Source: Arenicola marina (lineage: Eukaryota; Annelida; Polychaeta; Arenicolidae). From it: a stretch of DNA of 64,000 bases. The notes beneath the pieces were generated by a model. The model was not told where the DNA came from, did not search any database, and worked only from the letters and a program-made list of their open reading frames with translations. Within the stretch, counting starts at the first letter, position 1; each line of letters starts with the position of its first letter. The position numbers and the translations under genes were made by a program. Of this stretch, positions 1-38,109 are shown in pieces. The stretch is taken from contig OZ025248.1 of NCBI GenBank assembly GCA_964019135.1, forward strand, positions 52,507,670-52,571,669, read 5' to 3'.

Positions 1-682
1 CACCTTTCCCCACCCACCCCCTGTACTCACGATGAACAGTATCTTGCACGTGATGAGGGTCACCGCCCCCTTTCCCCACCCCCACTTTCCCCACCCACCC
101 CCTGTACTCACGATAAACAGGATCTTGCCCTTGATGAGGGTCACCCCCCCCCCTTCCCCCACCCACCCCCTGTACTCACGATGAACAGGATCTTGCTCTT
201 GATGAGGGTCACCTTTCCCCACCCACCCCCTGTACTCACGATAAACAGGATCTTGCCCTTGATGAGGGTCACCCCCCCCCTGTACTCACGATAAACAGGA
301 TCTTGCCCTTGATGAGGGTCACCCCCCCCCCCCTTCCCCCACCCACCCCCTGTACTCACGATAAACAGGATCTTGCCCTTGATGAGGGTCACCCCCCCCC
401 CCTTCCCCCACCCACCCCCTGTACTCACGATGAACAGGATCTGGCCTTGATGAGGGTCACCCCTCCCCTTCCCCCACACACCCCCTGTACTCACGATGAA
501 CAGGATCTTGCCCTTGATGAGGGTCACCTTTCCCCACCCACCCCCTGTACTCACGATGAACAGTATCTTGCACGTGATGAGGGTCACCGCCCCCTTTCCC
601 CACCCACCCCCTGTACTTACGATAAACAGGATCTTGCCCTTGCTGAGGGTCACCCCCTCCCCCGCCCACCCCCTGTACTCAC
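1..682 (-). repeat. Donor-bearing minisatellite downstream of MED14 E35
   Basis: About 11 tandem units of roughly 50-80 bp, running off the left edge. On the minus strand each unit carries a near copy of the last ~27 nt of E35 (coding IKGKILFI) followed by a splice donor (GTGAGTACAG) and a G-rich spacer. Unit length varies through G-run length. The donor next to E35 (682-681) is taken as the real one. Confidence 0.9.
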
Positions 683-3600
683 GATGAACAGGATCTTGCC
701 CTTGATGACCACAGCGGCCGTGCCGATGGGGGCGATCGGTGGCGCCCCGTGCGGCATTGTCAGACAATACTGGGGCCGCCACTTCAGCGANNNNNNNNNN
801 NNNNNNNNNNNNNNNNNNNNNNNNNNNNNNNNNNNNNNNNNNNNNNNNNNNNNNNNNNNNNNNNNNNNNNNNNNNNNNNNNNNNNNNNNNNNNNNNNNNN
901 NNNNNNNNNNNNNNNNNNNNNNNNNNNNNNNNNNNNNNNNNNNNNNNNNNNNNNNNNNNNNNNNNNNNNNNNNNNNNNNNNNNNNNNNNNCCCCGGCCTA
1001 CCTTGGTCTCAAAGAAGCGTTCCAGGATCTGCAGTTCCTCGCCCTCCCATTGGCTGGCGGTGTCCGCTAGGGGCGACACCTTCATGTGGAGAGACTGCAA
1101 CGTGCCGGGGTTCATGCTGACCTTGAACTGGAGCGTGTCGACCTTCATCATGACGGTCCAGGGCTCGTTGCTCTGAATATTGACCAGCTGAGGCCCGACA
1201 CAGAACACGATACACACAGGACATCACAACGAATATTAGTAATTAAAAGTTGAAAAAAAAGGGGCATTTTCACGAATAACTGCATGGTAGAAAATATATA
1301 TATCCGCTATCCATCACCGAACATTCGCAAATTACAAAACTTACATTAAATTAAATTAAAAAAGGAAAAAAAAATTTATAATAGAAAATACATATAACCC
1401 CTATCTTAACACCTCTTAACACTTCCGATGCTGGAAACTGGATATACCCGCTATATATAAACACATCTGACCAAATCGCGTCTTTTAACGGTGATATCGT
1501 CGCGTCATAATATGGCGTTGACGGCGTCCCACCCACGTAACCACCCACCCACGTGACCACCCGGGCGACTCACGTGTTCGTCTGTCATAACGACGCGCTG
1601 CATGTGTTTACGCAGCGACACGCAGCAGAGGAAGCGCTCCAGGGGGCAGCACGGGACGGCGGTGGCCAGCTCGCCCGGAGCGCCCCCTGCCGAGAGACCG
1701 GGCGACAGCAGCTTGTTGAGGGCGTCGTGCGAGATGAGGGTGGGTATGGAGGCGGCCCAGGAACGCTGGGGCAGCATGCGCGACGGCGGACTCAGCACGG
1801 ACCCTGGGTGGAGGGAAGGAAAAGGCAGGATGAGAAGTGTGGTCACAGACCGGCCACGTGGACCGCAATGAGCTCCATATGGTGTGTACACAGGTATATG
1901 TGGAAATATCACACCGACATGTAAACATGTGTATGGAGAAATATCACACTGACATGTAAACACGTGCATGTAGCAATATCACACCGACATGTAAACATGT
2001 GCATGTAGCAATATCACTCCAACATGTAAACATGTGCAAGTAGCAATATCACACCGACATGTAAACATGTGCATGTAGCAATATCACACCGACATGTAAA
2101 CATGGGCAAGTAGCAATATCACACCGACATGTAAACATGGGCAAGTAGCAATATCACACCGACATGTAAACATGGGCAAGTAGCAATATCACACCGATAT
2201 GTAAACATGTGCATGTAGCAATATCACACAGACATGTAAACATGTGCATGTAGCAATATCACACTGACATGTAAACATGTGCAAGTAGCAATATCACACC
2301 GACATGTAAACATGTGCAAGTAGCAATATCACACCGACATGTAAACATGTGCATGTAGCAATATCACACCGACATGTAAACATGTGCATGTAGCAATATC
2401 ACACCGACATGTAAACATGTGCAAGTAGCAATATCACAGACATGTAAATATGGTAATGTAGCAATATCACATTGACATGTAAACATATGCAAGTAGCAAT
2501 ATCACACAGACATGTAAATATGTGAATGTAGCAATATCACATTGACATGTAACTATGTGAATGCAGCAATATCACACCGACATGTAAATCTGTGAATGTA
2601 GCAATATCACACTGACATGTAAACATGTGTATGTAGCAATATCACACCGACATGTAAACATGTGCAAGTAGCAATATGACACTGACATGTAAACATGGTG
2701 TATGTAGCAATATCACACTGACATGTAAACGTGTGCATGTAGCAATATCACACTGACATGTAAATATGTGAATGTAGCAATATCACACTGACATGTAAAC
2801 ATGTGTATGTAGCAATGTCCCAATAATATTTCAATTGTGTCAATAACAATAGACATACAAACTTGCATTATTGTTACGTTATTATCACATTGGACGTCGA
2901 CATGTTGCACTGTACAATATTTGTACAATATGTACATACATAGGACACAAACAGCTATCTAAATATATACATAGGCTTCAAACGTGTGACAAAGGCCCAC
3001 ATTATTCGTGTTGTTTAGTTTCGGATGATATGTGTTAGTACGTTTTATGGTGAAGTCAACACCCTTAACTAACATATTATATGCCAAAAGTTAAGTTTAA
3101 CCGCAACAACAGCTGGTTTCAATCGTATGAAATGAATACTGTCAACGATGACAAATAGTACTTTTTAACATATTTTCGCCGCGGACACTAAATATTGCTG
3201 CTTTTATAAAAGCTAATTGATGTCACAACTCCGGGGTCACAGTTACTGGTGCGGAAGATATTAGTGATTTATCTGCTTCTTCGAACCTTTCACGTGTCTC
3301 GTGCCTTTGCAGACATAACCGACATTTTTAGCGTGATCCGAAATAACTTTTCGAAATAACCAAATGCCGAGCGTTCCCGACGTTAACCGAAAGAAGTGGA
3401 ACGGGTGCCACAGGAACCGGAGTGGCTCCGACCAGACCACCTACCTGGTGGCCGGGGGTAGTCGGCGTCCCTCTGAGGGGAGTGCAGGGCGGGGTGGCCG
3501 GGGGACAGGGCGGCCAGGCGGGAGGACGCCGGCGACGGCGACCCGGGCCAGTTGCGGTTGCCGGGGGACGGCATGGTGAGAGTGGCGGCAGCCCCGCCCG

Positions 3601-6600
3601 TACCGGCCCCAGACCCCGGGAAGGGCGACCCACCACCGTCTAGCATTCCTAGAGGGGGGGAGAGAGGAGGGAACGAGAAAGGGAAGGGAGGAGGAGGTAA
3701 AAGTAGAGCCGTCATCAGCCGTCATCAGTATAATATCACTGACACGATAGCGGGACAACGTGTGAGGAAGAAGTCGGGGTGTGGGGGCACCAAGGCCTGA
3801 GAGAGGGAGAGATGGGTGGAAGGTGGGGGGTGGGGGGAGGGGGGGGGGGTGGCGGATGGGGGTGGCGGTGGGGGGGGGGGGGGGCAGGGAGGGGGGTAAG
3901 AAGCCCGAGAGAGGGAGTGAGAAACAGTGGTACAAAGTCAGGACAGATGGAGCGAGGAGAGGGAGGGGGGGGGGGGGGCAGAGAGAGGGAGTGGGCGGTG
4001 GCGTCAGCCTTAACTTTGTAACTGACACAATGAGACCTCAGCCTTAACTTTGTAACTGACACAATGAGACACACAGACAGCACGAGGGGAGTGAGAGAGC
4101 GAGTGAGGGGGAGGGGGGCACAGGGAGGGGGGAGGGGTAGAGGGAGAGATGGGGCGGGGGCGTCAGCCGTAACTTTGTAACTGACACAGCGAAAAATACA
4201 GACAGCACGAGGGGAGCGAGAGAGCTAATGAGTCAGAGAGTGAGACAATTCTTCAAGGACATCTCCAAACCCAAGTTACCAAGTAGTTAGCGAACAGTAT
4301 TAGTTAAGACTACCAAACAAAAATCGGTTAAAGAATAAGTATGAGCACGACAATTCCATGAATCCCGTAAGTACATTGCCTCCGCCAGGTGAAGCCGGCG
4401 TCCTGACTTACCTTGTGACATGAAGGCGGCCGGGGAGGGCATGTGGATGCCCAGGGAGGACGGGGACGGGGCCGGCACGAAGGACGACGGTGACGGCACG
4501 TGTAGCGCTGGGTTGCCAGGCGACGGGGCCATGGAGGGTGACGGCGTGACCCCCGGCTGCAGCGAGGGCGGCGACGACAGGGGGAAGTTGGACGTGGCGG
4601 GGGAGGAGGCGTGGTAGGCCTGATACGGTACAGAGGTCAGAGGTCAGGGTTCACAAATAATTAAAAATCAGGAATACATATCTGCAGATCAATAAAATTA
4701 ATAGATTCCTCATTCCGTATTTTCATTGTTTTTACAAATAGACATATACGTACACGTATAATGATATCATACAGAATATGATACGAGAAGCACCCATACA
4801 AGGCCAAAAATCATAAATCTAAAACATTGACGAGTCTTTGCAGAGCTTGCCTACATTATCAGTTCATGCATATCCACAGCTTGCCTACATCATCAATTCA
4901 TGTGTGCGCAGAGCTTGCTTACATCCTCAGTTGATGCATGCCCACAGCTTGCTTACGTCATCAGTTCATGTGTATCCACAACTTGCCTACGTCATCAGTT
5001 TGTGTGCACACATATTGCCTGCGACATCAGTCCCATTTACCGACACAGACTGACACATGACCAATGTTTTTATTTCACAAATCGTGTGCTATATTCATGG
5101 AGACACTCATTTATAAATACACAGTAATATGCGGATATTAGTCTAAAGAGATATGTCATAAAATCTAACGTAAGAAAGAACGATATGCATATACGACGTG
5201 GAATGGCACTAAGCTTTATAACGTCTACGATGGCTGTTCTAGTACTGTGGTTAATTTAAAGTCACTTATAGATCCTGCAGGACTGGGCGAGATAATCTTT
5301 GTCTGTATTCTCGCAAGTGACTATAATAAAAACAATATCCATCTATCGTTTCACTTTTAGTAGACACTAGATAGTGGCATTTCCTAATACTTCGTTTCGC
5401 CTACCTGTGACATGCGCTGCGTGCTGGGAGAGGCCGGGGTGTTGGGGTTGGACGGAGGGGTCATGGGGAAGCGCATGGCCCCCGGGTCGCCTTGCTTCTG
5501 CACCAGGCGGGTGGCTGGCGACCCCAGGCTGCCGGACTGGCTGAGGAAGGAATCCATGGTGTCCACCCCTACCGGGGTCGGCGGGTTGTCGTCTTCGGCG
5601 GTGGACCGTCTACGGGCGGCGCTCGACAACACGGTCTCGTCCACGTACATGTTGAGGAAGCCCTGGAGGGACAGTGTACATGTTGAGGAAGGAAGCCCTG
5701 GAGGGACAGTGTACATGTTGAGGGAGGAAGCCCTGGAGGGACAGTGTACATGTTGAGGAAGCCCTGGAGGGACAGTGTACATGTTGAGGAAGCCCTGGAG
5801 GGCAGTGTACATGTTGAGGAAGGAAGCCCTGGAGGGACAGTGTACATGTTGAGGAAGCCCTGGAGGGACAGTGTACATATTGAGGGAGGAAGCCCTGGAG
5901 GGACAGTGTACATGTTGAGGAAGCCCTGGAGGGCAGTGTACATGTTGAGGAAGCCCTGGAGGGCAGTGTACATGTTGACGAAGCCCTGGAGGGACAGTGT
6001 ACATGTTGAGGGAGGAAGCCCTGGAGGGACAGTGTACATGTTGAGGAAGCCCTGGAGGGACAGTGTACATGTTGAGGGAGGAAGCCCTGGAGGGACAGTA
6101 TACATGTTGAGGAAGCCCCGGAGGGACAGTGTACATGTTGAGGGAGGAAGCCCTGGAGGGCAGTGTACATGTTGAGGGAGGAAGCCCTGGAGGGACAGTG
6201 TACATGTTGAGGGAGGAAGCCCTGGAGGGACAGTGTACATGTTGAGGAAGCCCTGGAGGGACAGTGTACATGTTGAGGAAGCCCTGGAGGGACAGTGTAC
6301 ATGTTGAGGAAGCTCTGGAGGGACAGTGTACATGTTGAGGAAGCCCTGGAGGGCAGTGTACATGTTGAGGAAGAAAGCCCTGGAGGGACAGTGTACATGT
6401 TGAGGGAGGAAGCCCTGGAGGGACAGTGTACATGTTGAGGAAGCCCTGGAGGGCAGTGTACATGTTGAGGGAGGAAGCCCTGGAGGGACAGTGTACATGT
6501 TGAGGGAGGAAGCCCTGGAGGGACAGTGTACATGTTGAGGGAGGAAGCCCTGGAGGGACAGTGTACATGTTGAGGGAGGAAGCCCTGGAGGGACAGTGTG

Positions 6601-9600
6601 CATGTTGAGGGAGGAAGCCCTGGAGGGACAGTGTACATGTTGAGGGAGGAAGCCCTGGAGGGACAGTGTACATGTTGAGGAAGGAAGCCCTGGAGGGACA
6701 GTGTACATGTTGAGGGAGGAAGCCCTGGAGGGACAGTGTACATGTTGAGGAAGGAAGCCCTGGAGGGACAGTGTACATGTTGAGGAAGCCCTGGAGGGAC
6801 AGCGTACATGTTGAGGGAGGAAGCCCTGGAGGGACAGTGTACATGTTGAGGGAGGAAGCCCTGGAGGGACAGTGTACATGTTGAGGGAGGAAGCCCTGGA
6901 GGGACAGTCTACATGTTGAGGAAGGAAGCCCTGGAGGGACAGTGTACATGTTGAGGAAGGAAGCCCTGGAGGGACAGTGTACATGTCGAGGGAGGAAGCC
7001 CTGGAGGGACAGTGTACATATTGAGGGAGGAAACCCTGGAGGGACAGTGTACATGTTGAGGGAGGAAGCCCTGGAGGGACAGTGTACATGTTGAGGGAGG
7101 AAGCCCTGGAGGGACAGTGTACATGTTGAGGAAGGAAGCCCTGGAGGGACAGTGTACATGTTGAGGAAGCCCTGGAGGGACAGCGTACATGTTGAGGGAG
7201 GAAGCCCTGGAGGGACAGTGTACATGTTGAGGGAGGAAGCCCTGGAGGGACAGTGTACATGTTGAGGGAGGAAGCCCTGGAGGGACAGTGTACATGTTGA
7301 GGGAGGAAGCCCTGGAGGGACAGTGTACATGTTGAGGGAGGAAGCCCTGGAGGGACAGTGTACATGTTGAGGAAGGAAGCCCTGGAGGGACAGTGTACAT
7401 GTTGAGGAAGGAAGCCCTGGAGGGACAGTGTACATGTTGAGGAAGCCCTGGAGGGACAGTGTACATGTTGAGGGAGGAAGCCCTGGAGGGACAGTGTACA
7501 TGTTGAGGAAGGAAGCCCTGGAGGGACAGTGTACATGTTGAGGGAGGAAGCCCTGGAGGGACAGTGTACATGTTGAGGAAGGAAGCACTGGAGGAACAGT
7601 GTACATGTTGAGGAAGCCCTGGAGGGACAGCGTACATGTTGATGGAGGAAGCCCTGGAGGGACAGTGTACATGTTGAGGGAGGAAGCCCTGGAGGAACAG
7701 TGTACATGTTGAGGAAGGAAGCCCTGGAGGGACAGTGTACATGTTGAGGAAGCCCTGGAGGGACAGCGTACATGTTGAGGGAGGAAGCCCTGGAGGGACA
7801 GTGTACATGTTGAGGAAGGAAGCACTGGAGGAACAGTGTACATGTTGAGGAAGCCCTGGAGGGACAGCGTACATGTTGATGGAGGAAGCCCTGGAGGGAC
7901 AGTGTACATGTTGAGGGAGGAAGCCCTGGAGGAACAGTGTACATGTTGAGGAAGGAAGCCCTGGAGGGACAGTGTACATGTTGAGGAAGCCCTGGAGGGA
8001 CAGTGTACATGTTGAGGGAGGAAGCCCTGGAGGGACAGTGTACATGTTGAGGAAGGAAGCCCTGGAGGGACAGTGTACATGTTGAGGGAGGAAGCCCTGG
8101 AGGAACAGTGTACATGTTGAGGAAGCCCTGGAGGGACAGCGTACATGTTGATGGGGGAAGCCCTGGAGGGACAGTGTACATGTTGAGGGAGGAAGCCCTG
8201 GAGGAACAGTGTACATGTTGAGGAAGGAAGCCCTGGAGGGACAGTGTACATGTTGAGGAAGCCCTGGAGGGACAGCGTACATGTTGAGGGAGGAAGCCCT
8301 GGAGGGACAGTGTACATGTCGAGGGAGGAAGCCCTGGAGGGACAGTGTACATGTTGAGGGAGGAAGCCCTGGAGGGACAGTGTACATGTTGAGGGAGGAA
8401 GCCCTGGAGGAACAGTGTACATGTTGAGGGAGGAAGCCCTGGAGGGCAGTGTACATGTTGAGGAAGCCCTGGAGGGACAGTGTAAATGTTGAGGAAGCCC
8501 TGGAGGGACAGTGTACATGTTGAGGGAGGAAGCCCTGGAGGGCAGTGTACATGTTGAGGAAGCCCTGGAGGGCAGTGTACATGTTGAGGAAGCCCTGGAG
8601 GGATAGTGTACATGTTGAGGGAGGAAGCCCTGGAGGGACAGTGTACATGTTGAGGGAGGACGCCCTGGAGAGACAGTGTACATGTTGAGGAAGCCCTGGA
8701 GGGACAGTGTACATGTTGAGGAAGTCCTGGAGGGACAGTGTACATGTTGAGGGAGGAAGCCCTGGAGGGACAGTGTACATGTTGAGGAAGCCCTGGAGGG
8801 ACAGTGTACATGTTGAGGAAGGAAGCCCTGGAGGGACAGTGTACATGTTGAGGGAGGAAGACCTGGAGGGACAGTGTACATGTTGAGGAAGCCCTGGAGG
8901 GACAGTGTACATGTTGAGGGAGGAAGCCCTGGAGGGACAGTGTACATGTTGAGGAAGCCCTGGAGGGACAGTGTACATGTTGAGGGAGGAAGACCTGGAG
9001 GGACAGTGTACATGTTGAGGGAGGAAGTCCTGGAGGGACAGTGTACATGTTGAGGAAGCCCTGGAGGAACAGTGTACATGTTGAGGGAGGAAGCCCTGGA
9101 GGGACAGTGTACATGTTGAGGGAGGAAGCACTGGAGGGACAGTGTACATGTTAAAGGAGGAAGCCCTGGAGGGACAGTGTACATGTTGAGGAAGCTCTGA
9201 AGGGACAGTGTACATGTGGAGGGAGGAAGCCCTGGAGGGCAGTGTACATGTTGAGGGAGGAAGCCCTGGAGGGACAGTGTACATGTTGAGGGAGGAAGCC
9301 CTGGAGGGACAGTGTACATGTTGAGGAAGCCCTGGAGGGACAGTGTACATGTTGAGGAAGCCCTGGAGGGCAGTGTACATGTTGAGGGAGGAAGCCCTGG
9401 AGGGACAGTGTACATGTTGAGGAAGCCCTGGAGGGACAGTGTACATGTTGAGGAAGCTCTGGCGGGATAGTGTACATGTTGAGGGAGGAAGCCCTGGAGG
9501 GACAGTGTACATGTTGAGGAAGGAATCCCTGGAGGGACAGTGTACATGTTGAGGGAGGAAGCCCTGGAGGGACAGTGTACATGTTGAGGAAGCCCTGGAG

Positions 9601-20495: not shown

Positions 20496-20545
<50 letters not shown>

Positions 20546-29500: not shown

Positions 29501-32500
29501 ATCATGACTGATGCCAGGGCAACATGCTATGATATGATGTAGGGTTGTTTTATAACAGCAATAGGCCAGAGAGCCTAGTGTCGATATACTCGTTGGTACA
29601 CTCGGACGCATAACAACTAATTTATTCACGTGCTATCATGCGAGAGGCCAAACACAGAAATTCAGACAGGCTGTTCCGTAGCCTGGTGATTTTGTAACAA
29701 CATCAGTACCTAGTTCAAACAATTCAGGTCTGCTTAGTCCCTTCCAATAGTATTATGGAACGTGTAGAACGTGTTAATCCAACAAGATCCGTATTATTCA
29801 TAATGTGACAAACTAGGAAGTGTACAGAGTAAACAACGCCGGCCTACGTACGCGGTGCCAGACAGACAACAGGAAGCGATTAGTCAGGGCGTATACCCCA
29901 ACACAGCATACTGGGAGCCCATCGACCCATACAGGCCACATATCAATGATATAAGCATTATGTATCTGATACAGATACTGTCAAGGTGACCGTCACATTA
30001 TCTATCGCGGTGAGACGCTGTAAGCAAAGGACACTCACTGGTGTGGAATTGGCGACCTTCTCGCCTCGGCATCTCCCTGAAAGACGTTTAAATAGAGCAT
30101 CAGTAAACATAGGTGAGAAAATAACGCCATCCGTGTAACCAACTACCAATAATTCCCATAATGTCCAACTATTATGTTTATAATAACGATATTTACATCT
30201 GAACACCTTACGACAGGGTTCCCACGCCCATCTGGTAACATGAGCATAATCTCCCAGAGCACCTGCCATTACCACTGACCTCCAGTAGGAGAGCACGAGG
30301 TATGTTAACATTATGCCAGGTTTGTACATGACGGCGTTTATATGGAACATTCTACAATATCCTCGCTGAGCCTAATCTCCCAGAGCACCTGCCATTGCCA
30401 CTGACCTCCAGTAGGAGAGCACGAGGTATGTTAACATTATGCCAGGTTTGTACATGACGGCGTTTATATGGAACATTCCACAATATCCTCGCTGAGCCTA
30501 ATCTCCCAGAGCACCTCCCATTACCACTGACCTCCAGTAGGAGAGCACGAGGTATGTTAACAATATGCCAGGTTTGTACATGACGGCGTTTATATGGAAC
30601 ATTCTACAATATCCTCGCTGAGCCTAATCTCCCATAGCACCTGCCATTGCCACTGACCTCCAGTAGGAGAGCACGAGGTATGTTAACATTATGCCAGGTT
30701 TGTACATGACGGCGTTTATATGGAACATTCTACAATATCCTCGCTGAGCCTAATCTCCCAGAGCACCTGCCATTGCCACTGACCTCCAGTAGGAGAGCAC
30801 CAGGCACTTTCCCGCCACGTAGTTCTCGACGTGGACGTGTTCGCCAAGCCGGAAGCGAATAAGTCTCTGGGCCTAAAAAAAAGGACATCGATATTACAAA
30901 ACAATTATTACAGTTTGTCGTGTTAATGCTCTTGTCATGTGAATCTGATGGAACTAGCCCCCCTAACATAAATCCCGCATCAAGGAAAGAACTACAAATC
31001 CTGACCGTACGGTAGCCGCGATTGAAGCTTTTTTCAAAATTGTATATTATTTGAAAAAAAATCATCTGTATACTATCGCGAGCGAATGGTTCGCTTATAC
31101 ATGTACTTAAATTTGATTGTAATCCATAATTCTTGTCAATATTTACATTAGATTATAAAATCTCGACTAGGCTTTCATTAACGCCAAGTTTGAGATGAAC
31201 ATTCACCTGTACGTATGGTAAACCTCTTTATTGAAATAAAACTTCAATAAAAAAAGGACACACAAGGTCAAATACATCAACTATACTCTACTACAAAGTC
31301 CTTGAATATTTTACATAAACTCAACGTCTTATAACTTATAAATATTATCCACAGATTTGTATTCATTCTCTATGGAATGCAAAATTGGTTTAACTGGTTA
31401 TGCGATTAGGAAAGGAAAGGAGAAAACAGTAAGGGATAATATAGCAAATAAGACATCCTCTTACCTGAGAATGGAGAACTTCTAGCTGCAGCGATTGACA
31501 GAATGAATCTGTTTGGTGCTGTTAAGAATTCGTCCCTGATATTCTATTCCAGTCTAATCCATAATTTATATGTATCAAGACTACAGTTAACTAAATGTAT
31601 ATAGAAGCATTACTTAATACCTCAATCGGCAGTTACTGAATAAGTAATGTATAAACAATGTTATGAGTAAATAAAGCAATCATATTTGCAATGAGCTCCT
31701 CCTTTAAAAGTCTTATAAATGTTTGTAATGTTTCAGCTGCAACCGGTTTGATAACATAATTTTCCTTAGATTTTCGAACATTAAATATGCCATTAACATG
31801 TAAAGGATACGCAGACAGTTGTAGAGGTCATGGAGAGGTAGGTCGTTGTCCATCAGGCGGGACTGGACCAGCTGATGGATGTAGTTCACCTGAAGTAACC
31901 GAAGGTGTCAATTACCAGTACACGCGGTTGTGGTTGTGGTTTATTTGGTCTTGAAGGCCTTAAGGCCCAAATGACACAACATATAATTATACAAACAGTT
32001 TGCATGGTGCGCAGTATTTTGAAAAACATACATTTACGTGGTGGAACAGAGACGATTTTCAATAAGATATATGCACATTGCCAAATTCCTCAGGGTCGTT
32101 ACATCATTATGACACATTAGGGTCCGAAAAAACTCAAATGTGGAGGGTTCCAAAATATAGAATCAATATATATTTTACGAATATCCGCGAACTTGGTACA
32201 ACACAACAAAACATGAAATTCATCCTCGATAACGGTAACACGTGCATCAGTTCAGTCACGTAAATGCTGCATTTATCCTTTCACAATAGCTATCTTGGTG
32301 TTACATTAGACCGGGTAACGATTTTTTTTTTACAAAGACATACCGGTACATCTTTAAATCTACCTGAAGTTCAAGAGTATTAAACCGCAATAAATATGTA
32401 TATAGGAAAAAAATAAAATATATATGTATCAACATATGAAGTCATCTTTAACTACGGAGACTTACTTGCAGGCTGTGAACGAGAGCTTTTCCATCTGAAT

Positions 32501-35500
32501 AGAGAGCAATGTCATACACACACTGTTACAAGTGTGGGTAACTCACATACCATCATGTTGCACATAATTACCACTGCACACGTTACGGTTATAAATGAAT
32601 GTTTTTAACATCAAATTTGTGGAACATACGTTCACAAAGCACTTCTTAACGGTATAAACTCTTTAATATACGTTCATTTACCATAGAATTCGCTAAACCT
32701 AAAATGGTCATCTGACAAAGCTAAAACTCGGCATAGACACTATAAGCATATGTTTGTCTTATAGTCAGATCACGACGAACACTGCCATGGCGACTCATAC
32801 CCCCGGTATCCGGATCCTCCACCAAGAACTCAATGTCCAAGAGCCTCCAGGGAATATGTGCTCCATCTCCCATTAAGGTCAAGGTCACCTGAAGGCGACA
32901 GTCCTTCCATATTATCATCATGCATAGAAGTGCATATAAAATCGTGACAATGTAGGAACAAGTCCACTATTGCGGGGACGACAAGTTTGGAGGAAGGATT
33001 AAGCGAAAGGAAATATCAATCGGTTTGAATGCATGAATTTCTTCTTATATACTTCACTTTGATTAATTAATTCATCGATACAAAGCATTAAGTGTTATTT
33101 AATTAATTCAGCCAAAGGATCCAAGCTACCACAGGGACATATACCTGTGATTTCAGACCATATATTCAGTTACCGTTTCGGTGAATACACACCAGTTTTA
33201 TTGATTTCATACATCACTTCAGGCACGAAAATCGCATTACATTTGCCTCAGCGCTTTCAATGGCTTAAGGTTTCTTTTAATTTCTACATCGCTTCGGTCG
33301 ATGATTGACTTGATATTTTAATGCTTAAATAGAAGGCGTATGACACCAGGGATACGAACCTCAAACTCATGTTCCACACAGAACCTCACTCGGCCATTCT
33401 CTGTAACATAAACCAGGCCAATGATGAGTAACACAGAACCTTACTCGGCCATTCTCTGTAACATAAACCAAGCCAATGATGAGTAACACAGAACCTCACT
33501 CGGTCATTCTCTGTAACATAAACCAGGCCAATGATGAGTAACACAGAACCTCACTCGGCCATTCTCTGTAACATAAACCAGGCCAATGATGAGTAACACA
33601 GAACCTCACTCGGCCATTCTCTGTAACATAAACCAGGCCAATGATGAGTAATACAGAACCTCACTCGGCCATTCTCTGGAACATAAACCCGGCCAATGAT
33701 GAGTAACACAGAACCTCACTCGGTCATTCTCTGGAACATAAACCAAGCCAATGGTGAGTGACACAGAACCTCACTCGGCCATTCTCTGTAACATAAACCA
33801 GGCCAATGGTGAGTAACACAGAACTTCACTCGGCCATTCTCTGGAACATAAACCAGGCCAATGATGAGTAACACAGAACCTCACTCGGCCATTCCCTGGA
33901 ACATAAACCAGGCCAATGAAGAGTAACACAGAACCTCACTCGGCCATTCTCTGGAACATAAACCAGGCCAATGAAGAGTAACACAGAACCTCACTCGGCC
34001 ATTCTCTGTAACATAAACCCGGCCAATGAAGAGTAACACAGAACCTCACTCGGCCATTCTCTGTAACATAAACCCGGCCAATGATGAGAAACACAGAACC
34101 TCACTCGGCCATTCTCTGTAACATAAACCAGGCCAATGATGAGTAACACAGAACCTCACTCGGCCATTCTCTGTAACATAAACCAGGCCAATGATGAGTA
34201 ACACAGAACCTCACTCGGCCATTCTCTGTAACATAAACCAAGCTAATGATGAGTAACACAGAACCTCACTCGGCCATTCTCTGTAACATAAACCAGGCCA
34301 ATGGTGAGTGACACAGAATCTCACTCGGCCATTCTCTGTAACATAAACCAGGCCAATGATGAGTAACACAGAACCTCACTCGGCCATTCTCTGTAACATA
34401 AACCAGGCCAACGATGAGAAACACAGAACCTCACTCGGCCATTCTCTGTAACATAAACCAGGCCAATGATGAGTAACACAGAACCTCACTCGGCCATTCT
34501 CTGTAACATAAACCAGGCCAATGATGAGTAACACAGAACCTCACTCGGCCATTCTCTGTAACATAAACCAAGCCAATGATGAGTAACACAGAACCTCACT
34601 CGGCCATTCTCTGTAACATAAACCAGGCCAATGATGAGTAACACAGAACCTCACTCGGCCATTCTCTGTAACATAAACCAAGCCAATGATGAGTAACACA
34701 GAACCTCACTCGGCCATTCTCTGTAACATAAACCAGGCCAATGATGAGTAACACAGAACCTCACTCGGCCATTCTCTGTAACATAAACCAGGCCAATGAT
34801 GAGTAACACAGAACCTCACTCGGTCATTCTCTGGAACATAAACCAGGCCAATGATGAGTAACACAGAACCTCACTCGGCCATTCTCTGTAACATAAACCA
34901 GGCCAATGATGAGTAACACAGAACCTCACTCGGCCATTCTCTGTAACATAAACCAAGCCAATGATGAGTAACACAGAACCTCACTCGGCCATTCTCTGTA
35001 ACATAAACCAGGCCAATGATGAGTAACACAGAACCTCACTCGGCCATTCTCTGTAACATAAACCAGGCCAATGATGAGTAACACAGAACCTCACTCGGCC
35101 ATTCTCTGTAACATAAACCAGGCCAATGATGAGTAACACAGAACCTCACTCGGCCATTCTCTGTAACATAAACCAGGCCAATGATGAGTAACACAGAACC
35201 TCACTCGGCCATTCTCTGTAACATAAACCAGGCCAAGGATGAGTAACACAGAACCTCACTCGGTCATTCTCTGGAACATAAACCAAGCCAATGGTGAGTG
35301 ACACAGAACCTCACTCGGCCATTCTCTGTAACATAAACCAGGCCCATGATGAGTAACACAGAACCTCACTCGGCCATTTTCTGTAACATAAACCAAGCCA
35401 ATGATGAGTAACACAGAACCTCACTCGGCCATTCTCTGTAACATAAACCAGGCCAATGATGAGTAACACAGAACCTCACTCGGCCATTCTCTGTAACATA

Positions 35501-38109
35501 AACCAGGCCAATGATGAGTAACACAGAACCTCACTCGGCCATTCTCTGTAACATAAACCAGGCCAATGATGAGTAACACAGAACCTCACTCGGCCATTCT
35601 CTGTAACATAAACCAGGCCAATGATGAGTAACACAGAACCTCACTCGGTCATTCTCTGGAACATAAACCAAGCCAATGGTGAGTGACACAGAACCTCACT
35701 CGGCCATTCTCTGTAACATAAACCAGGCCAATGATGAGTAACACAGAACCTCACTCGGCCATTCTCTGTAACATAAACCAGGCCAATGATGAGTAACACA
35801 GAACCTCACTCGGCCATTCTCTGTAACATAAACCAGGCCAATGATGAGTAACACAGAACCTGACTCGGTCATTCTCTGGAACATAAACCAAGCCAATGGT
35901 GAGTGACACAGAACCTCACTCGGTCATTCTCTGGAACATAAACCAAGCCAATGGTGAGTGACACAGAACCTCACTCGGCCATTCTCTGTAACATAAACCA
36001 GGCCAATGATGAGTAACACAGAACCTCACTCGGCCATTTTCTGTAACATAAACCAGGCCAATGATGAGTAACACAGAACCTCACTCGGTCATTCTCTGTA
36101 ACATAAACCAGGCCAATGATGAGTAACACAGAACCTCACTCGGCCATTCTCTGTAACATAAACCAGGCCAATGATGGGTTCTATCCATGTCATAGACACT
36201 TTAGCTCTTCATCGAGGTTTTACTCTAGTTACTGCGAATCATTTAGCACGGGAAGGGTGGGCCGTGAGGTCGGGCAGAGCAGGGGCCGGGCACGGCGAGG
36301 GTGGACCGTGAGTCACTGACCGATGCGCGGCCGCCGCATGCGCGTGGGCAGGTCGCCGGTGACGAGGCGGTGCTCGATGATCTGGTCGAGTCGCAGCAGC
36401 GTCTGATCCTTCTCCTCCTCGGTGATGGGGTCGGGGGGCACGATCTTCTCCTGCAACACACCATCCATCTCACCTACGTCAAACCCGATTCCAACTCAAG
36501 AGTATACAAAACAACACATAAATACAGAGAGCACAGCCTTGAAGCCACGTGATGAGCAATCACTAGAGGATCACGTGACAGGACAGCGAGCTACCGCGAG
36601 GACACATGGCGACGTCAAGACTGCGGGGGTGGCGGGTGTCATTCTGAGAGTTGCTGGTCACATGCCCTTAATTTCAAAAGCTCTGTTTGCAGAACGAAAT
36701 ACAACGCGCTAATGTTCAACATACAAACAAGGGTATAATCATGTACCTTGATACAAGCTGGCAGTCTGGGGTAGGTACCAGTCGTCAGGACATCAATGGC
36801 ACAAGGCAAGGAGAAGCTGGGTAGCCTGTAGAAACAGTCAACATTGTACGACATGACTGCATGGCATAGGCTGTATGTTGTAACTACATTCTACTATCCT
36901 ATGCTGGTAACAAACCACACATCGCGAAGTGCTGCATGAATCGATATATGTAGATATTTTTTATATTTAATTCTACATACCCAGTATTTAGATTTTATTC
37001 ACAAACACGGCGGATAAGAGCAGATATCATTATAACTACCGGTACTCATTGAAATTGACATATCATCACGCTATAGCAAATGTTACCACAAAGCTATGTA
37101 ATTGATACTGTTGCTCCTGGCAACAGGCGACCGACCTGGCGTGGACAAGAGTCTCCCTCGCCATCTTCGCCAACATGTCTGCAGTGTCAACAAATAACAT
37201 GCCCTGCTGGTCCAAGAAGGACGAGATCATCTGCGAAACCAAAGCAAAGCGTAGCCAACTATTACGTACATTACAAGTCATCCTGCACCAGGACATACTC
37301 AAGATGGACGGATATGCTACCATTCAAGGTATGTACCGGTATGCATTGAATGTGTCCCAAACCATCAAATGTGTCCCAAATCATCAGCCTCCCCACCTCA
37401 TGCTGCATCCGTAATATTTCACCCGTTGCATGTTAAAATAAGAAAGGAGTACATGTATATATATATATATATAGCATTTTGTATACATAAGCATTCTGGG
37501 GTACTATGTTACTGCCCAAGTTTTCAATCGCATTCTCTGCTATTTGTTACACATATCCGGATAAATGTCTTAATATATAAGAATCTTTCCAATGACTTCA
37601 ATAGACTTTCCACGGACTCACAGCGCATTTGTCCACTTTGCTAGCGCTGTTGGCCCATTTGACAAGAGCAAGCAGACGGACAAACAGTTGTCGGGTGCGA
37701 CTCGCAAACTGTACAATCTCTATTTTTCTGTCCATGTCTGTCTTCCTTGGCAGACTGAAATCATAACAAAATAATGGAAATGAGGCAAGGATATGACAAG
37801 AGCAATGTCATGTTCGTTTGCTTACAGTAGCATAAGAGAAAGTCAAATTTCTCTTTTTTAAGATTTAATATAACACCACCGACCAAGCTGATATTATCTG
37901 GAAATTTGGGTCATCATTCTTGATACTTACAGCTCAGAGAGAACACTTAGTTCATGGTAAGTCCTCTGTATGATGTAGTCAATGAGGGTGGAGAGGGGGA
38001 TGGTACTGCCACCAGGGCCATGCTGTTGTTGCACTGGCACCATCACATGGCTGTCAATCGGTGCCATCATCAGTGGCTTGCGTCACAAGTGACTTTCAAC
38101 TTCCTACAT
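1..38109 (-). CDS. MED14: MED14, Mediator complex subunit 14 (whole gene model; 3' end outside window)
   Basis: MED14 is the scaffold of Mediator, joining head, middle and tail modules and linking activators to RNA polymerase II in the nucleus. Coding exons (high to low coordinate) are listed separately as E1-E35; every join through E34 keeps phase and has GT-AG borders. Visible coding length is 4,035 nt (1,345 codons); with the part lost in the N gap and the exons left of the window, the size would be near the ~1,450 residues of vertebrate MED14. Diagnostic matches include the N-terminal block ending in an LxxLL motif (L44-L48), '[20 protein letters not shown]', 'SSFLDQQ', 'VPPDPIT', 'SKNKLFI', a Ser/Pro-rich linker and '[12 protein letters not shown]'. 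The start is the first ATG after an in-frame TGA 15 nt upstream; an acceptor at 38111-38110 shows that at least one 5' untranslated exon lies further right. Introns hold very large minisatellites, nine of which contain splice sites. Confidence 0.96.
683..790 (-). CDS. MED14: MED14 E35 (5' part missing in N gap)
   Basis: Thirty-six codons are visible, from [15 protein letters not shown] to KGKILFI, matching the late C-terminal region of MED14. The exon runs into the N gap, so its acceptor is unseen. The donor is GTGAGT at 682-677, phase 0. Confidence 0.9.
791..990. other. Assembly gap (200 N)
   Basis: A run of 200 N, the usual placeholder for a gap of unknown size. About 43 MED14 residues between E34 (ending FFETK) and the visible part of E35 are missing and should lie here, in one or more exons. 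Confidence 0.97.
1002..1187 (-). CDS. MED14: MED14 E34
   Basis: 186 nt, 62 codons (residues 1248-1309), phase 0 in and out. It encodes [10 protein letters not shown] through ILERFFETK, a strongly conserved C-terminal block. Acceptor ...CCTCAG, donor GTAGGC. Confidence 0.95.
1188..1573 (-). other. MED14 intron 33, no array
   Basis: A 386-bp AT-rich intron with poly-A and poly-T runs. I see no repeat array or other feature. Confidence 0.8.
1574..1803 (-). CDS. MED14: MED14 E33
   Basis: 230 nt, phase 1 in, 0 out (residues 1171-1247). Encodes [20 protein letters not shown] and [19 protein letters not shown], among the best-conserved MED14 segments. Acceptor CACCCAG, donor GTGAGT. Confidence 0.96.
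1891..2815. repeat. 35-bp minisatellite in MED14 intron 32
   Basis: About 26 copies of a 35-bp unit, (GACATGTAAACATGTGCATG + TAGCAATATCACACC). The unit has no exon sequence and no evident splice site. Units toward the right side are more diverged. The unit holds the near-palindrome ACATGTAAACATGT. Confidence 0.93.
2816..3444 (-). other. Rest of MED14 intron 32
   Basis: AT-rich unique intron sequence between the 35-bp array and E32. No gene or repeat recognised. Confidence 0.7.
3445..3648 (-). CDS. MED14: MED14 E32 (Ser/Pro-rich linker)
   Basis: 204 nt, phase 1 in and out (residues 1103-1170). Encodes [15 protein letters not shown] and HPALHSP, aligning with the Gly/Ser/Pro-rich disordered linker of MED14 around its NWPGSP motif. 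Donor GTAGGT. Confidence 0.9.
3649..4411 (-). other. MED14 intron 31: polypurine tract and short duplications
   Basis: On the plus strand most of 3650-4240 is G/A-only sequence with several runs of nine or more G; on the transcribed strand this is a very long polypyrimidine tract leading to the E32 acceptor. A ~30-bp segment (GCCTTAACTTTGTAACTGAC) occurs near 4006, 4040 and 4147. Triplex or G-quadruplex formation is plausible but untested. Confidence 0.75.
4412..4619 (-). CDS. MED14: MED14 E31 (Ser/Pro-rich linker)
   Basis: 208 nt, phase 0 in, 1 out (residues 1034-1102). Encodes [20 protein letters not shown], matching the APSPASFVPTPPPSSHG stretch of vertebrate MED14. Acceptor TATCAG, donor GTAAGT. 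Confidence 0.93.
4830..5030. repeat. Short degenerate array in MED14 intron 30
   Basis: About five copies of a ~36-bp unit built on AGCTTGCCTACATCATCAGT, each with a TCATGCATATCCACA-like tail. No splice site in the unit. The rest of intron 30 (4620-5404) is unremarkable AT-rich sequence. Confidence 0.8.
5405..5662 (-). CDS. MED14: MED14 E30
   Basis: 258 nt, 86 codons (residues 948-1033), phase 0 in and out. Begins [10 protein letters not shown] and continues [18 protein letters not shown], matching the KTFLNMFVD...RRRSVNEDDNPPSP region of vertebrate MED14. Its acceptor (CTCCAG, 5664-5663) and first ~18 nt are the template of the array to its right. Donor GTAGGC. Confidence 0.96.
5663..10030 (-). 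repeat. Acceptor-bearing 30/31/35-bp minisatellite, about 130 copies (MED14 intron 29)
   Basis: Interleaved unit classes of 35 bp (two spellings, GGGAGGAAG and GGAAGGAAG), 31 bp and 30 bp. On the minus strand each unit reads CACTGTCCCTCCAG then GGCTTCCTCAACATGTA or a longer variant, i.e. a polypyrimidine-AG acceptor followed by the first ~18 nt of E30. The consensus unit has no stop codon in any minus-strand frame, which creates open frames over 1,000 codons; the longest (1,444 codons) runs in frame into E30. I read these as by-products of the repeat. Confidence 0.95.
10031..10156 (-). repeat. Donor-bearing repeat, three copies, after MED14 E29
   Basis: Three imperfect copies of the E29 end plus donor: GTCACCCCCATCCCGGGGTT, CAAG, then GTAAGCC. 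The donors lie near 10156, 10084 and 10036. The last one sits only a few bases from the first acceptor-bearing unit of the neighbouring array. Confidence 0.9.
10157..10351 (-). CDS. MED14: MED14 E29
   Basis: 195 nt, 65 codons (residues 883-947), phase 0 in and out. Encodes [20 protein letters not shown] and [16 protein letters not shown], ending GVTPIPGFK. Very close to vertebrate MED14. Donor GTAAGC. Confidence 0.97.
10352..11030 (-). other. Left part of MED14 intron 28
   Basis: Unique AT-rich intron sequence with no recognised feature. Short open frames here match nothing I know. Confidence 0.7.
11031..12590. repeat. 21-bp minisatellite, about 74 copies (MED14 intron 28)
   Basis: Unit TACCGCGGCAGTGTGTATGAA with point variants (TACTGCGGC, CGAATACC, CAGAGTG). 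Most copies hold one or two CpG and many a CCGCGG palindrome. Twenty-one bp is seven codons, so long open frames exist on both strands; their residue strings are only the repeat. No donor or acceptor is carried in a convincing context. Confidence 0.94.
12607..12681 (-). CDS. MED14: MED14 E28
   Basis: 75 nt, 25 codons (residues 858-882), phase 0 in and out. Encodes [20 protein letters not shown] then LGLDH, matching [22 protein letters not shown]. Donor GTGAGT. Confidence 0.94.
12968..13117 (-). CDS. MED14: MED14 E27
   Basis: 150 nt, 50 codons (residues 808-857), phase 0 in and out. Encodes [19 protein letters not shown], aligned with FHISLGTVGPNSGCSNCHN. Acceptor TTTCAG, donor GTAGGT. Confidence 0.95.
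13118..13660 (-). other. MED14 intron 26
   Basis: A 543-bp intron without array. No feature recognised. Confidence 0.75.
13661..13749 (-). CDS. MED14: MED14 E26
   Basis: 89 nt, phase 1 in, 0 out (residues 778-807). Encodes [19 protein letters not shown], matching SEVRVYNYRKLILCYGTTK. Acceptor TTGCAG, donor GTAGGG. Confidence 0.93.
13925..14464 (-). repeat. Donor-bearing 87-bp minisatellite, six extra copies of MED14 E25 end
   Basis: Each 87-bp unit holds 57 nt of E25 (from CGGGCCTTGTCACAGCTGTA to CTACAGCG) plus 30 nt of intron starting GTAAGTGTGT. With the real exon there are seven donors, near 14464, 14377, 14290, 14203, 14116, 14028 and 13932; the last two units are diverged or altered in length. 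The unit is a multiple of three and stop-free in the E25 frame. Inside the exon part lies TTGTCACAG, which could act as an acceptor. Confidence 0.95.
14465..14602 (-). CDS. MED14: MED14 E25
   Basis: 138 nt, phase 1 in and out (residues 732-777). Encodes [19 protein letters not shown] and [20 protein letters not shown], aligned with LNDWNSIARLYECVLEFAR. Acceptor TTACAG, donor GTAAGT. Confidence 0.95.
14762..15362. repeat. 71-bp minisatellite (MED14 intron 24)
   Basis: About eight copies of a 71-bp unit holding CATTGTCCAATAGTAAACAG, CCACAATGGGACAGCAGTCA and a TATGTATATCTCATGTCACA segment. It starts about 12 nt inside the intron after the E24 donor, so the donor itself is not repeated. It contains direct CCAAT and ATTGG boxes, which may be chance. 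Confidence 0.95.
15375..15423 (-). CDS. MED14: MED14 E24
   Basis: 49 nt, phase 0 in, 1 out (residues 716-731). Encodes [16 protein letters not shown], aligned with LVFANCPLNGTSTREQ. Acceptor TTTCAG, donor GTAAAG. Confidence 0.93.
15580..16461 (-). repeat. Donor-bearing 21-bp minisatellite, about 41 copies, after MED14 E23
   Basis: Minus-strand unit GTCAGTTACACTCCTGTGGAG. GTGGAG is the exact end of E23 and GTCAGT is its donor, so every full unit recreates the exon-donor junction. The unit is seven codons, stop-free and in the E23 frame, reading V-S-Y-T-P-V-E. A few units gain one base (TGGAGGGTCAG), which shifts frame. Confidence 0.95.
16462..16573 (-). CDS. MED14: MED14 E23
   Basis: 112 nt, phase 2 in, 0 out (residues 678-715). 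Encodes [20 protein letters not shown] and [14 protein letters not shown], aligned with IPPCKGITEETQKALDRSLL. Acceptor CTGCAG, donor GTCAGT. Confidence 0.94.
16815..16858 (-). mobile_element. Possible tRNA-derived SINE head fragment
   Basis: Minus strand just after the E22 donor reads GTGGCTCAGTGGATAGCGTG then CTCAA, a good match to a tRNA 5' part with A box TGGCTCAGTGG. I see no B box in place, so it would be a fragment; chance similarity is possible. Confidence 0.4.
16860..16936 (-). CDS. MED14: MED14 E22
   Basis: 77 nt, phase 0 in, 2 out (residues 653-677). Encodes [20 protein letters not shown], matching LSNLEIPHQGVQVEGDGFS. Donor GTAAGT. Confidence 0.93.
17541..17669 (-). CDS. MED14: MED14 E21
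   Basis: 129 nt, 43 codons (residues 610-652), phase 0 in and out. Encodes [16 protein letters not shown] and [13 protein letters not shown], matching LSDDPCPVESKKTKRAG and CDTNMPFVGLRLE. Donor GTGAGG. Confidence 0.94.
17670..18671 (-). other. MED14 intron 20
   Basis: About 1 kb of AT-rich intron with a short (TA)n run near 18310-18330. No array and no gene recognised. Confidence 0.75.
18672..18715 (-). CDS. MED14: MED14 E20
   Basis: 44 nt, phase 1 in, 0 out (residues 595-609). Encodes [15 protein letters not shown], leading into the conserved KL..GDPC of E21. Acceptor TTTCAG, donor GTAAGC. Confidence 0.88.
18833..19584 (-). repeat. Donor-bearing 45-bp minisatellite, about 17 copies, after MED14 E19
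   Basis: Minus-strand unit contains GTGTACCCACGGACCCACCG then CCACGCTCTATG and the donor GTTAGTGCTC. The segment from TCTCGTGTACCCACGG to CTATG is the end of E19, so the exon-donor junction recurs in each unit. In the E19 frame the donor is followed at once by a TAG, so reading past it ends translation. Confidence 0.92.
19585..19795 (-). CDS. MED14: MED14 E19
   Basis: 211 nt, phase 0 in, 1 out (residues 525-594). Starts [20 protein letters not shown], matching VVEMLEVPNKPTQLSYKYYF. The second half is more divergent. The donor GTTAGT at 19584 was chosen because it alone gives the phase needed by E20 without a stop. Confidence 0.85.
19849..20078. mobile_element. Fold-back element with (AAT)n core in MED14 intron 18
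   Basis: Left arm near 19888-19925 and right arm near 20033-20078 share the inverted 18-mer AGCCAGCCAACCAAGCCA, extended by weaker matches (CCGCATCTCT against CCGCCAGCC..., AGAGACAATAA against TTATTGTCCCTCT). The centre is AAT/ATT repeats that can also pair. It looks like a small non-autonomous inverted-repeat element; family unknown. Confidence 0.7.
20252..20411 (-). CDS. MED14: MED14 E18
   Basis: 160 nt, phase 2 in, 0 out (residues 471-524). Encodes [17 protein letters not shown] and [18 protein letters not shown], near identical in layout to vertebrate MED14. Donor GTTAGT. Confidence 0.96.
20477..20570. repeat. (AAT)n microsatellite
   Basis: Run of AAT/AATA repeats with few interruptions just right of E18, inside intron 17. 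Confidence 0.95.
20655..27378 (-). repeat. Donor-bearing 49/43-bp minisatellite, about 140 copies, after MED14 E17
   Basis: Largest array of the window (6.7 kb). The minus-strand unit holds CACCTCAGCAAGCTCAG, the last 17 nt of E17, followed by the donor GTATGGCTCAGTATGGACTG and GGATAGATCAAA. A 43-bp variant lacks GATCTA-side bases (reads GTGTTATCCCAG on plus) and is clustered at 23465-24060. Blocks of several variant units recur, e.g. around 22420-22700 and 25370-26290, which points to higher-order duplication. Unit length is not a multiple of three. Confidence 0.96.
27379..27457 (-). CDS. MED14: MED14 E17
   Basis: 79 nt, phase 1 in, 2 out (residues 445-470). Encodes [20 protein letters not shown] then KHLSKLR, aligned with the DQATLDDMEKSVNDDMKRI segment before FWLGQQRC. 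Acceptor CCGCAG, donor GTATGG. Confidence 0.93.
27458..28171 (-). other. MED14 intron 16
   Basis: About 0.7 kb of unique intron sequence; no array or gene recognised. Confidence 0.75.
28172..28297 (-). CDS. MED14: MED14 E16
   Basis: 126 nt, phase 1 in and out (residues 403-444). Encodes [20 protein letters not shown] and [18 protein letters not shown], aligned with IETALPALVVPILEPCGNS. Donor GTATGG. Confidence 0.93.
28311..28492. repeat. Short ~26-bp minisatellite (MED14 intron 15)
   Basis: About six copies of GCGTTACGGGTCAGA plus ACAATACTG-like sequence, adjoining the E16 acceptor region. No splice site within the unit. Confidence 0.88.
28630..28669 (-). CDS. MED14: MED14 E15
   Basis: 40-nt exon, phase 0 in, 1 out (residues 390-402). 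Encodes [13 protein letters not shown], aligned with ELKAILRGFNANE. Acceptor TTGCAG, donor GTAAGT. Confidence 0.88.
28862..28930 (-). CDS. MED14: MED14 E14
   Basis: 69 nt, 23 codons (residues 367-389), phase 0 in and out. Encodes [20 protein letters not shown] then KLK, matching IDHLSIEKLLIDSVHARAHQ. Donor GTAAGC. Confidence 0.95.
29199..29311 (-). CDS. MED14: MED14 E13
   Basis: 113 nt, phase 1 in, 0 out (residues 329-366). Encodes [20 protein letters not shown], matching HKVTIKIDENDVSKPLQIFH. Donor GTCAGT. Confidence 0.95.
29361..29479. other. Long imperfect hairpin in MED14 intron 12
   Basis: Two arms of about 50 nt (29361-29412 and 29428-29479) are inverted copies at roughly 80% identity, separated by about 15 nt. 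Matching cores are TTTAGCCGGCTACGGGGCCT on the left and, inverted, TTTAGACGACTAAGGGGCTT. It could be a short MITE or an RNA hairpin; no microRNA family recognised. Confidence 0.7.
30039..30076 (-). CDS. MED14: MED14 E12
   Basis: 38-nt exon, phase 2 in, 1 out (residues 316-328). Encodes [12 protein letters not shown], aligned with QQVLGRKTGTAS. It joins YWR of E11 to YKLSI of E13. Acceptor TTTCAG, donor GTGAGT. Confidence 0.87.
30245..30783 (-). repeat. Donor-bearing 126-bp repeat after MED14 E11, five donors
   Basis: Unit starts at 30245, 30371, 30497, 30623 and 30749, spaced exactly 126 bp. Each carries GTGCTCTCCTACTGGAG, the last ~17 nt of E11, and the donor GTCAGTGG. The outermost full copy is the real exon end. 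In the E11 frame a TAG follows about 12 codons after the donor. Confidence 0.94.
30784..30872 (-). CDS. MED14: MED14 E11
   Basis: 89 nt, phase 0 in, 2 out (residues 287-315). Encodes [20 protein letters not shown] then CLVLSYW, matching MLIRERWGDLVQVERYHAGK. Acceptor TTTTAG, donor GTCAGT. Confidence 0.95.
31465..31508 (-). CDS. MED14: MED14 E10
   Basis: 44-nt exon, phase 1 in, 0 out (residues 272-286). Encodes [15 protein letters not shown], differing in one residue from [15 protein letters not shown] of vertebrate MED14. Acceptor AAACAG, donor GTAAGA. Confidence 0.96.
31811..31889 (-). CDS. MED14: MED14 E9
   Basis: 79 nt, phase 0 in, 1 out (residues 246-271). Encodes [20 protein letters not shown] then NCL, matching [20 protein letters not shown]. 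Donor GTATCC is weak but is required by the phase and by E10. Confidence 0.94.
31890..32465 (-). other. MED14 intron 8
   Basis: AT-rich intron of 576 bp, no array. Short open frames here match nothing known. Confidence 0.75.
32466..32494 (-). CDS. MED14: MED14 E8 (29-nt microexon)
   Basis: 29-nt exon, phase 1 in, 0 out (residues 236-245). Encodes [10 protein letters not shown], matching DGRALVHSMQ. Acceptor ATTCAG, donor GTAAGT. Too short for ordinary gene finders. Confidence 0.93.
32801..32888 (-). CDS. MED14: MED14 E7
   Basis: 88 nt, phase 0 in, 1 out (residues 207-235). Encodes [20 protein letters not shown] then FLVEDPDTG, matching [20 protein letters not shown]. Donor GTATGA. Confidence 0.95.
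33360..33400 (-). CDS. MED14: MED14 E6 (41-nt exon)
   Basis: 41-nt exon, phase 1 in, 0 out (residues 193-206). Encodes [14 protein letters not shown], matching ANGRVKFRVEGEFE. Acceptor GTTACAG and the exon start are the template of the array to its right. Donor GTTCGT is weak. Confidence 0.93.
33401..36172 (-). repeat. Acceptor-bearing 55-bp minisatellite, about 50 copies, before MED14 E6
   Basis: Minus-strand unit contains GGCCTGGTTTATGTTACAG, a full acceptor, followed by AGAATGGCCGAGTGAGGTTC and TGTGTTACTCATCATT. The 27 nt after AG are the start of E6. Units are highly uniform, with a few variant classes (TTCCAG instead of TTACAG, AATGGTGAGTG) that recur in blocks. The unit is 1 modulo 3 and contains stops in the E6 frame. 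Confidence 0.96.
36321..36450 (-). CDS. MED14: MED14 E5
   Basis: 130 nt, phase 0 in, 1 out (residues 150-192). Encodes [20 protein letters not shown] and [15 protein letters not shown], matching [20 protein letters not shown]. Acceptor TTGCAG, donor GTCAGT. Confidence 0.96.
36747..36825 (-). CDS. MED14: MED14 E4
   Basis: 79 nt, phase 2 in, 0 out (residues 123-149). Encodes [20 protein letters not shown] then LPACIK, matching [20 protein letters not shown]. Donor GTACAT. Confidence 0.97.
37136..37230 (-). CDS. MED14: MED14 E3
   Basis: 95 nt, phase 0 in, 2 out (residues 92-122). Encodes [20 protein letters not shown] then [11 protein letters not shown], matching [20 protein letters not shown]. 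Acceptor TCGCAG, donor GTCGGT. Confidence 0.97.
37231..37621 (-). other. MED14 intron 2
   Basis: 391-bp intron with a short (TA)n run near 37455-37475. Nothing else seen. Confidence 0.8.
37622..37754 (-). CDS. MED14: MED14 E2
   Basis: 133 nt, phase 2 in, 0 out (residues 47-91). Encodes [20 protein letters not shown] then LALVKWAN, nearly identical to vertebrate MED14. Completes the LxxLL motif begun in E1. Donor GTGAGT. Confidence 0.98.
37931..38070 (-). CDS. MED14: MED14 E1 (start codon)
   Basis: 140 coding nt, phase 2 out (residues 1-46). Two ATGs stand in a row; an in-frame TGA at 38085-38083 rules out an earlier start in this exon. Encodes [20 protein letters not shown], matching LSTLIEFLLHRTYSELMVLT. 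The Gly/Ala-rich N-terminal stretch of mammalian MED14 is absent. The exon extends 39 nt upstream to an acceptor at 38111-38110. Confidence 0.95.

Follow-up and report, generated by a model that had tools for sequence, protein, structure and literature searches.

Tandem minisatellite-like repeats that cover exon/intron boundaries, termed mirages, have been described in amphioxus, in Adh3 and in globin genes, and both a donor and an acceptor type were reported (PMC3087553). In these mirages, the globin cases being BflGb6 and BflGb9, splice signals lie within many of the units and splicing is reported to be regular; the same work proposes a model in which introns are gained from mirage repeats (PMC3087553). 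Lancelet PGBD5 also carries repeats of the mirage type (PMC3902484). Related arrangements have been described elsewhere. Internal tandem repeats of human segmental duplications are likewise minisatellites (30 bp on average) at exon-intron boundaries, where they alter splicing or make introns, but they belong to recent paralogues, have on average 4 units and are often retained in transcripts (PMC2812944). Human UBC and other dual-specific AGGT repeats also have splice-site-bearing units in tandem within one gene, although the units of UBC are coding monomers and its sites serve as both donor and acceptor (PMC10809524). Among annelids, intron 1 of an earthworm metallothionein gene contains long minisatellite arrays with monomers of 25–216 bp, for which the available part of the paper describes no spanning of a splice junction (PMC12783039). 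A minisatellite study in C. elegans concerns, as far as the available text goes, intron motifs rather than junction arrays (PMC4039745). No splice-junction arrays in annelids were found among the matches listed in the open-licence literature, which is a weak form of absence.

The DNA analysed here (the window) is a stretch of 64,000 nucleotides that contains most of MED14 on the minus strand, as located by tblastn with human MED14 as query. One exon open reading frame matches MED14 chains in the PDB (E 3e-12). We placed 34 exons within the series E1–E36, and the numbering agrees with that of a preliminary description of this locus; E36 lies beyond the window, in the contig sequence that precedes it (L009), and E12 and E15 were not found in this exon model. 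After splicing, the draft shares 44% identity with the human sequence over 1474 alignment columns. With the exon-proximal copy used at every array, the frame is open in each placed stretch (E1–E11, E13–E14, E16–E34 and E35–E36). A run of 200 N at 791–990 masks the start of E35 and adjoins one array. Eight exon joins cover the nine arrays discussed below; their alignment took in the human protein and ten further animal proteins. The exon ends at the array junctions fit the MED14 orthologues with short gaps at most, as with THGP near the end of E19; the exceptions are the human sequence, which is gapped at E19/E20, one row (P0077) without E35/E36, and a short exon after E11 that was not found in our model.

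Tandem Repeats Finder (TRF) returned 56 rows in the window, and the arrays were then checked by reading the sequence in gene sense. Together with the exon model, these readings confirm nine arrays across splice junctions of MED14, at the positions and exons given in the preliminary description, seven of donor type and two of acceptor type (Table 1). All nine are tandem minisatellite-like repeats across an exon-intron boundary, with units of 21–126 bp and from about 3 to 139 copies. The exon-side unit of each array contains the junction, which is the predicted working site as judged from reading frame and homology. Array A1 continues past the window into L009 9201–10000. In A6, the second junction copy lies 74 bp past the first, and since this donor array abuts the acceptor array A5, intron 29 (5662–10157) is almost all array. 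For 39 bases of the A12 unit, at least 48 exact matches in the genome are reported, and all those reported lie within A12. A further array, of 120 bp x 7.5, follows E36 (L009 7981–8860) and repeats the end of that exon. Its repeated piece terminates in GGGGTGAGG, which could be either a stop codon or a donor, and for this reason the array is omitted from the main counts.

Table 1. MED14 and its minisatellite arrays in the window (coordinates of the window; units and copies as unit length x copy number)
Feature	Position	Strand	Unit x copies	Junction or location
MED14	1..38067	(-)		34 exons of E1-E36 placed; E36 beyond the window, in L009
A1, donor-type	1..708	(-)	unit about 60 bp	after E35 (visible E35 = 790-683)
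Array, non-spanning	1898..2816	(-)	35 bp x 26	intron 32; stops 94 bp short of E33 acceptor
Array, non-spanning	4840..5031	(-)	34 bp x 5.6	mid-intron 30
A5, acceptor-type	5654..10025	(-)	35 bp x 130	before E30 (E30 = 5662-5405)
A6, donor-type	10035..10176	(-)	three junction copies	after E29 (E29 = 10351-10157); extent by eye
Array, non-spanning	11036..12583	(-)	21 bp x 74	intron 28; begins 23 bp past E28 donor
A8, donor-type	13901..14535	(-)	87 bp x 6-7	after E25 (E25 = 14602-14465)
Array, non-spanning	14762..15364	(-)	71 bp x 8.5	intron 24; begins 10 bp past E24 donor
A10, donor-type	15562..16467	(-)	21 bp x 43	after E23 (E23 = 16573-16462)
A11, donor-type	18813..19623	(-)	42 bp x 19	after E19 (E19 = 19795-19585)
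A12, donor-type	20676..27399	(-)	49 bp x 139	after E17 (E17 = 27457-27379)
Array, non-spanning	28312..28482	(-)	26 bp x 6.7	stops 14 bp short of E16 acceptor
A14, donor-type	30241..30804	(-)	126 bp x 4.5	after E11 (E11 = 30872-30784)
A15, acceptor-type	33376..36176	(-)	55 bp x 51	before E6 (E6 = 33400-33360)

MED14 also contains five clear non-spanning arrays (Table 1) and a few small ones, mostly of two copies. The arrays near the donors of E28 and E24 were considered as junction arrays and ruled out, as both begin inside the intron.

The preliminary description had likened these arrays to the amphioxus mirages. As to form, the likeness stands: tandem repeats lie over donor and acceptor junctions and carry the splice signals in their units (PMC3087553), and in the seven arrays that we aligned almost every copy retains its GT or AG. 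The host, however, is an annelid near Pilargidae and not a lancelet. The sole COX1 match in the genome, which lies on a 15.9-kb contig, reads well under code 5 and is 92% identical to COX1 of Pilargis wolfi; the next 21 COX1 proteins listed are 86–90% identical, and the named ones are annelids (best 120 of 7999 matches). A MED14 tree of 31 rows places the window among the lophotrochozoans (17 rows, SH-aLRT 100) and Branchiostoma with the vertebrates (97). In the MED14 search, Lingula ranks first by bits and Branchiostoma lanceolatum takes place 115 (best 120 of 729 matches); a brachiopod origin, considered because of the Lingula match, was given up in view of COX1. We take occurrence in lancelets as a matter of the range of mirages, not of their definition. 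The two acceptor arrays had been suggested to extend the class, but that type had already been published (PMC3087553, PMC3902484). The annelid arrays do differ in scale from those described: the two reported BflGb6 haplotypes have 6 and 3 units (PMC3087553), and lancelet PGBD5 has three imperfect copies of a 108-bp repeat in a single gene (PMC3902484), compared with up to 139 copies in MED14. The kind of evidence differs as well, RT-PCR and two haplotypes in amphioxus (PMC3087553) and the sequence of one haplotype here. With regard to the dual-specific sites of UBC, several of the MED14 donor arrays have AG|GT at the junction, and the two acceptor arrays are without GT after the AG.

The genome comprises 867 Mb, of which 18 contigs of 33–77 Mb account for about 840 Mb. 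As a comparison set chosen blind to repeats, we used eight multi-exon CCT/HSP60 genes (CCT2, 3, 4, 5, 6, 8, HSPD1 and parts of CCT7), each named after the human sequence that it matched best. They were drawn from 49 matches to PF00118 in the genome, grouped by hand into 11 loci; the C9 gene and two loci with seemingly intronless matches were excluded. Their junctions (67 donors and 67 acceptors, with a few joins left without a solution) were placed by script, and 21 stretches were inspected visually. Nine of the 25 arrays in this set span a junction, in four of the eight genes: two donor arrays in CCT3, one donor and one acceptor array in CCT6, two of each in CCT7 and one donor array in HSPD1. 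No junction-spanning arrays were found by the same script-placed junctions and eye-read stretches in CCT2, CCT4, CCT5 and CCT8. The overlap is weak in two of the nine, namely the CCT6 acceptor array, with 7 exonic bases, and a CCT7 acceptor array (L038 1035), with 4. One CCT3 donor array (L035 5998–8382) appears to be of higher order: its units of 41 bp are intronic, and about 560 bp further along the exon end recurs within it together with the donor. A mirage-like phenomenon is present in a new phylum, distant from the lancelets, and half of the comparison genes show it, which suggests that it is common across this annelid genome.

Minisatellites are also abundant away from these genes. In a background sample of 18 pieces of 10 kb, taken at round coordinates on 11 contigs (L010–L027), arrays make up 47.8% of the bases, and in 7 of the 18 pieces their share is 80% or more. 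Five pieces (L017, L019, L020, L023 and L027) consist of one minisatellite throughout, with periods of 31–56 bp. The preliminary description had seen an extreme density of arrays in MED14. Nine arrays are indeed there, but they do not clearly set the gene apart: the rate per junction does not differ significantly between MED14 and the comparison set (Fisher p 0.12; the junction totals, 68 and 137, were fixed manually). We therefore dropped the notion of MED14 as an exceptional gene; array density seems to belong to the genome more than to this gene.

The account that we consider probable is that duplications straddling a junction are hidden by splicing and amplified in a genome permissive for minisatellites. 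Such a genome would readily form and expand short tandem duplications, some of which would cross splice junctions at random. The spliceosome, following exon definition, would keep the copy adjacent to the exon, which is the first for donors and the last for acceptors, and the remaining copies, exon-derived letters included, would become intron. Since all further copies would end up in the intron, the protein would be unchanged, and selection would for that reason leave the arrays in place, while their growth and homogenisation would proceed by ordinary minisatellite turnover. Against this account counts that random seeding alone fails to predict an excess of spanning arrays and their greater length, unless introns were about half their present length at seeding.

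The excess was assessed with a chance model in which each array is collapsed to one unit and seeds fall at random in the collapsed gene. Among 15 hand-picked arrays of MED14, 9 span a junction where 2.5–2.8 are expected (P 9e-5 to 3e-4), and inclusion of the E36 array raises the count to 10 (P 8e-6 to 3e-5). The 22 TRF arrays of MED14, with two calls hand-corrected, give 9 against 3.2–3.6 (P 0.001–0.004), and fully automatic calls give 7 of 23 against 3.9–4.3 (P 0.06–0.10). For the comparison set, with 3.9–4.2 expected, the hand-corrected count is 9/25 (P 0.005–0.011) and the uncorrected count 6/25 (P 0.16–0.22). In hand correction, three CCT and two MED14 calls were changed to spanning after the sequence had been read, two MED14 periods were set manually and one duplicate TRF row was removed. 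MED14 and the comparison set combined, hand-corrected, yield 18 spanning arrays of 47 against 7.1–7.8 expected (P 3e-5 to 1e-4).

These counts also bear on an alternative in which tandem duplications arise or expand more readily at splice junctions than elsewhere, owing to the junction or the edge of the exon itself; transcription-linked breakage, microhomology at AG|GT and the sequence of the exon edge are conceivable causes. Besides the combined excess, array size speaks for it, as the median length is 763 bp for spanning arrays and 126 bp for the rest (18 vs 28 arrays, p 2e-4), with a difference in the same direction in the comparison set alone (622 vs 166.5 bp, 9 vs 16 arrays, p 0.016). 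The size gap may, however, come from TRF catching chance two-copy repeats in introns; among arrays with three or more copies (16 spanning, 13 other), p is 0.03 for length and 0.15 for copy number. The automatic counts are weak for both gene sets, two of the nine comparison-set calls hang on the 7 and 4 exonic bases mentioned above, and the excess is gone if introns are halved at seeding (13.8 expected, P 0.10). A strict 24-mer test, in which 12 exonic plus 12 intronic bases must be repeated within 4 kb and the background includes dispersed copies, falls below expectation and gives no junction preference (12 of 199 junctions against 21 expected), although the 12 exonic bases that it requires make it blind to arrays that include little of the exon, as at E23. 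Donor arrays outnumber acceptor arrays among the spanning ones by 13 to 5 (p 0.10). The 30 TRF rows that are wholly intronic, four of which belong to arrays counted as spanning, have no preferred position (KS p 0.17).

Junction arrays are real and common in the sampled genes. The excess over random seeding is modest, and depends on hand-corrected calls and on ancestral intron length. The 24-mer test, the automatic counts and the halved-intron model weaken any strong claim of a hotspot, and we regard promotion by the junction itself as possible but unproven, and on the whole unlikely.

For the account based on tolerance by splicing, the choice of copy is central. The exon-proximal copy is presumably the one used in RNA, given the frame and homology at the array junctions. 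Use of the next donor copy would put E17, E29 and E35 out of frame and preserve the frame at E11, E19, E23 and E25, and the next acceptor copy is out of frame at E6 (unit 55 bp) and E30 (unit 35 bp). For E11 and E19, the open frames indicate that the extension reaches a stop; as five further junctions shift frame, E23 and E25 are the sole ones at which the next copy would be read through.

Splice dinucleotides were scored in the seven aligned arrays, A1 and A6 being left out. GT is intact in 130/139, 18/19, 40/43, 7/7 and 5/5 copies of the donor arrays, and AG in 51/51 copies of A15 and 129/130 of A5. In the three large donor arrays, GT is not conserved above other positions (rank 27/48, 19/41 and 13/20), while the AG of the acceptor arrays ranks 1/54 (ties counted favourably) and 2/34. 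When exon- and intron-derived letters of the internal copies were compared in six arrays, the exon-derived letters varied less than the others in A15 and A12 and more in A11 and A5, with no difference in A10 and A8. From the dinucleotide ranks and the letter comparison together, no steady selection emerges either for keeping or for destroying internal sites, and selection on these sites was set aside.

A use for the arrays, with internal donors or acceptors yielding alternative proteins or acting as decoy sites that tune splicing, would fit the mostly intact internal sites and the four donor junctions at which the next copy lies at a multiple of 3, two of which (E23 and E25) have an open extension. 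Such a role seems very improbable to us, as the next copy breaks the frame at five of the nine junctions and runs into a stop at another two (E11 and E19), the exon-derived letters lack steady conservation, and copy number varies from 3 to 139. An assembly artefact, in which collapsed or duplicated repeats produce the arrays, hardly deserves credence: assembly is difficult for arrays that reach 6.7 kb, and the N run adjoins one array, but the units are diverse (42 distinct among 139 in A12 and 23 among 51 in A15) and the pattern recurs at loci on other chromosomes with unit sequences and sizes that differ.

Under the favoured account, in which splicing hides the duplications, donor arrays would use their first site and acceptor arrays their last; if RNA confirms this, the rule common to both would be proximity to the exon. 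Because exon proximity would then fit both types of array, exon definition would become directly testable in nature. We also entertain, tentatively and with some doubt, a broader view, in which minisatellites of this genome arise preferentially at splice junctions, several percent of all junctions carry arrays with tens to hundreds of intact sites, the phenomenon arose independently of the lancelet one, and exon definition alone selects the exon-proximal copy. If this were true, the choice among identical splice sites would be put to a natural test in this genome, and new introns or extended exons would have a permanent source in it. Junction arrays also furnish the raw material of the intron-gain model proposed for mirage repeats (PMC3087553).

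Two further features lie in the window outside MED14. An open frame at 58039–58566 (+), with no match in Pfam, appears by eye to be part of the reverse transcriptase of a non-LTR retrotransposon. A putative Bcl-2 family exon at 43477–43773 (-), which matches PF00452 with E 2e-6, below the curated cut-off, is located near MED14 on the same strand.
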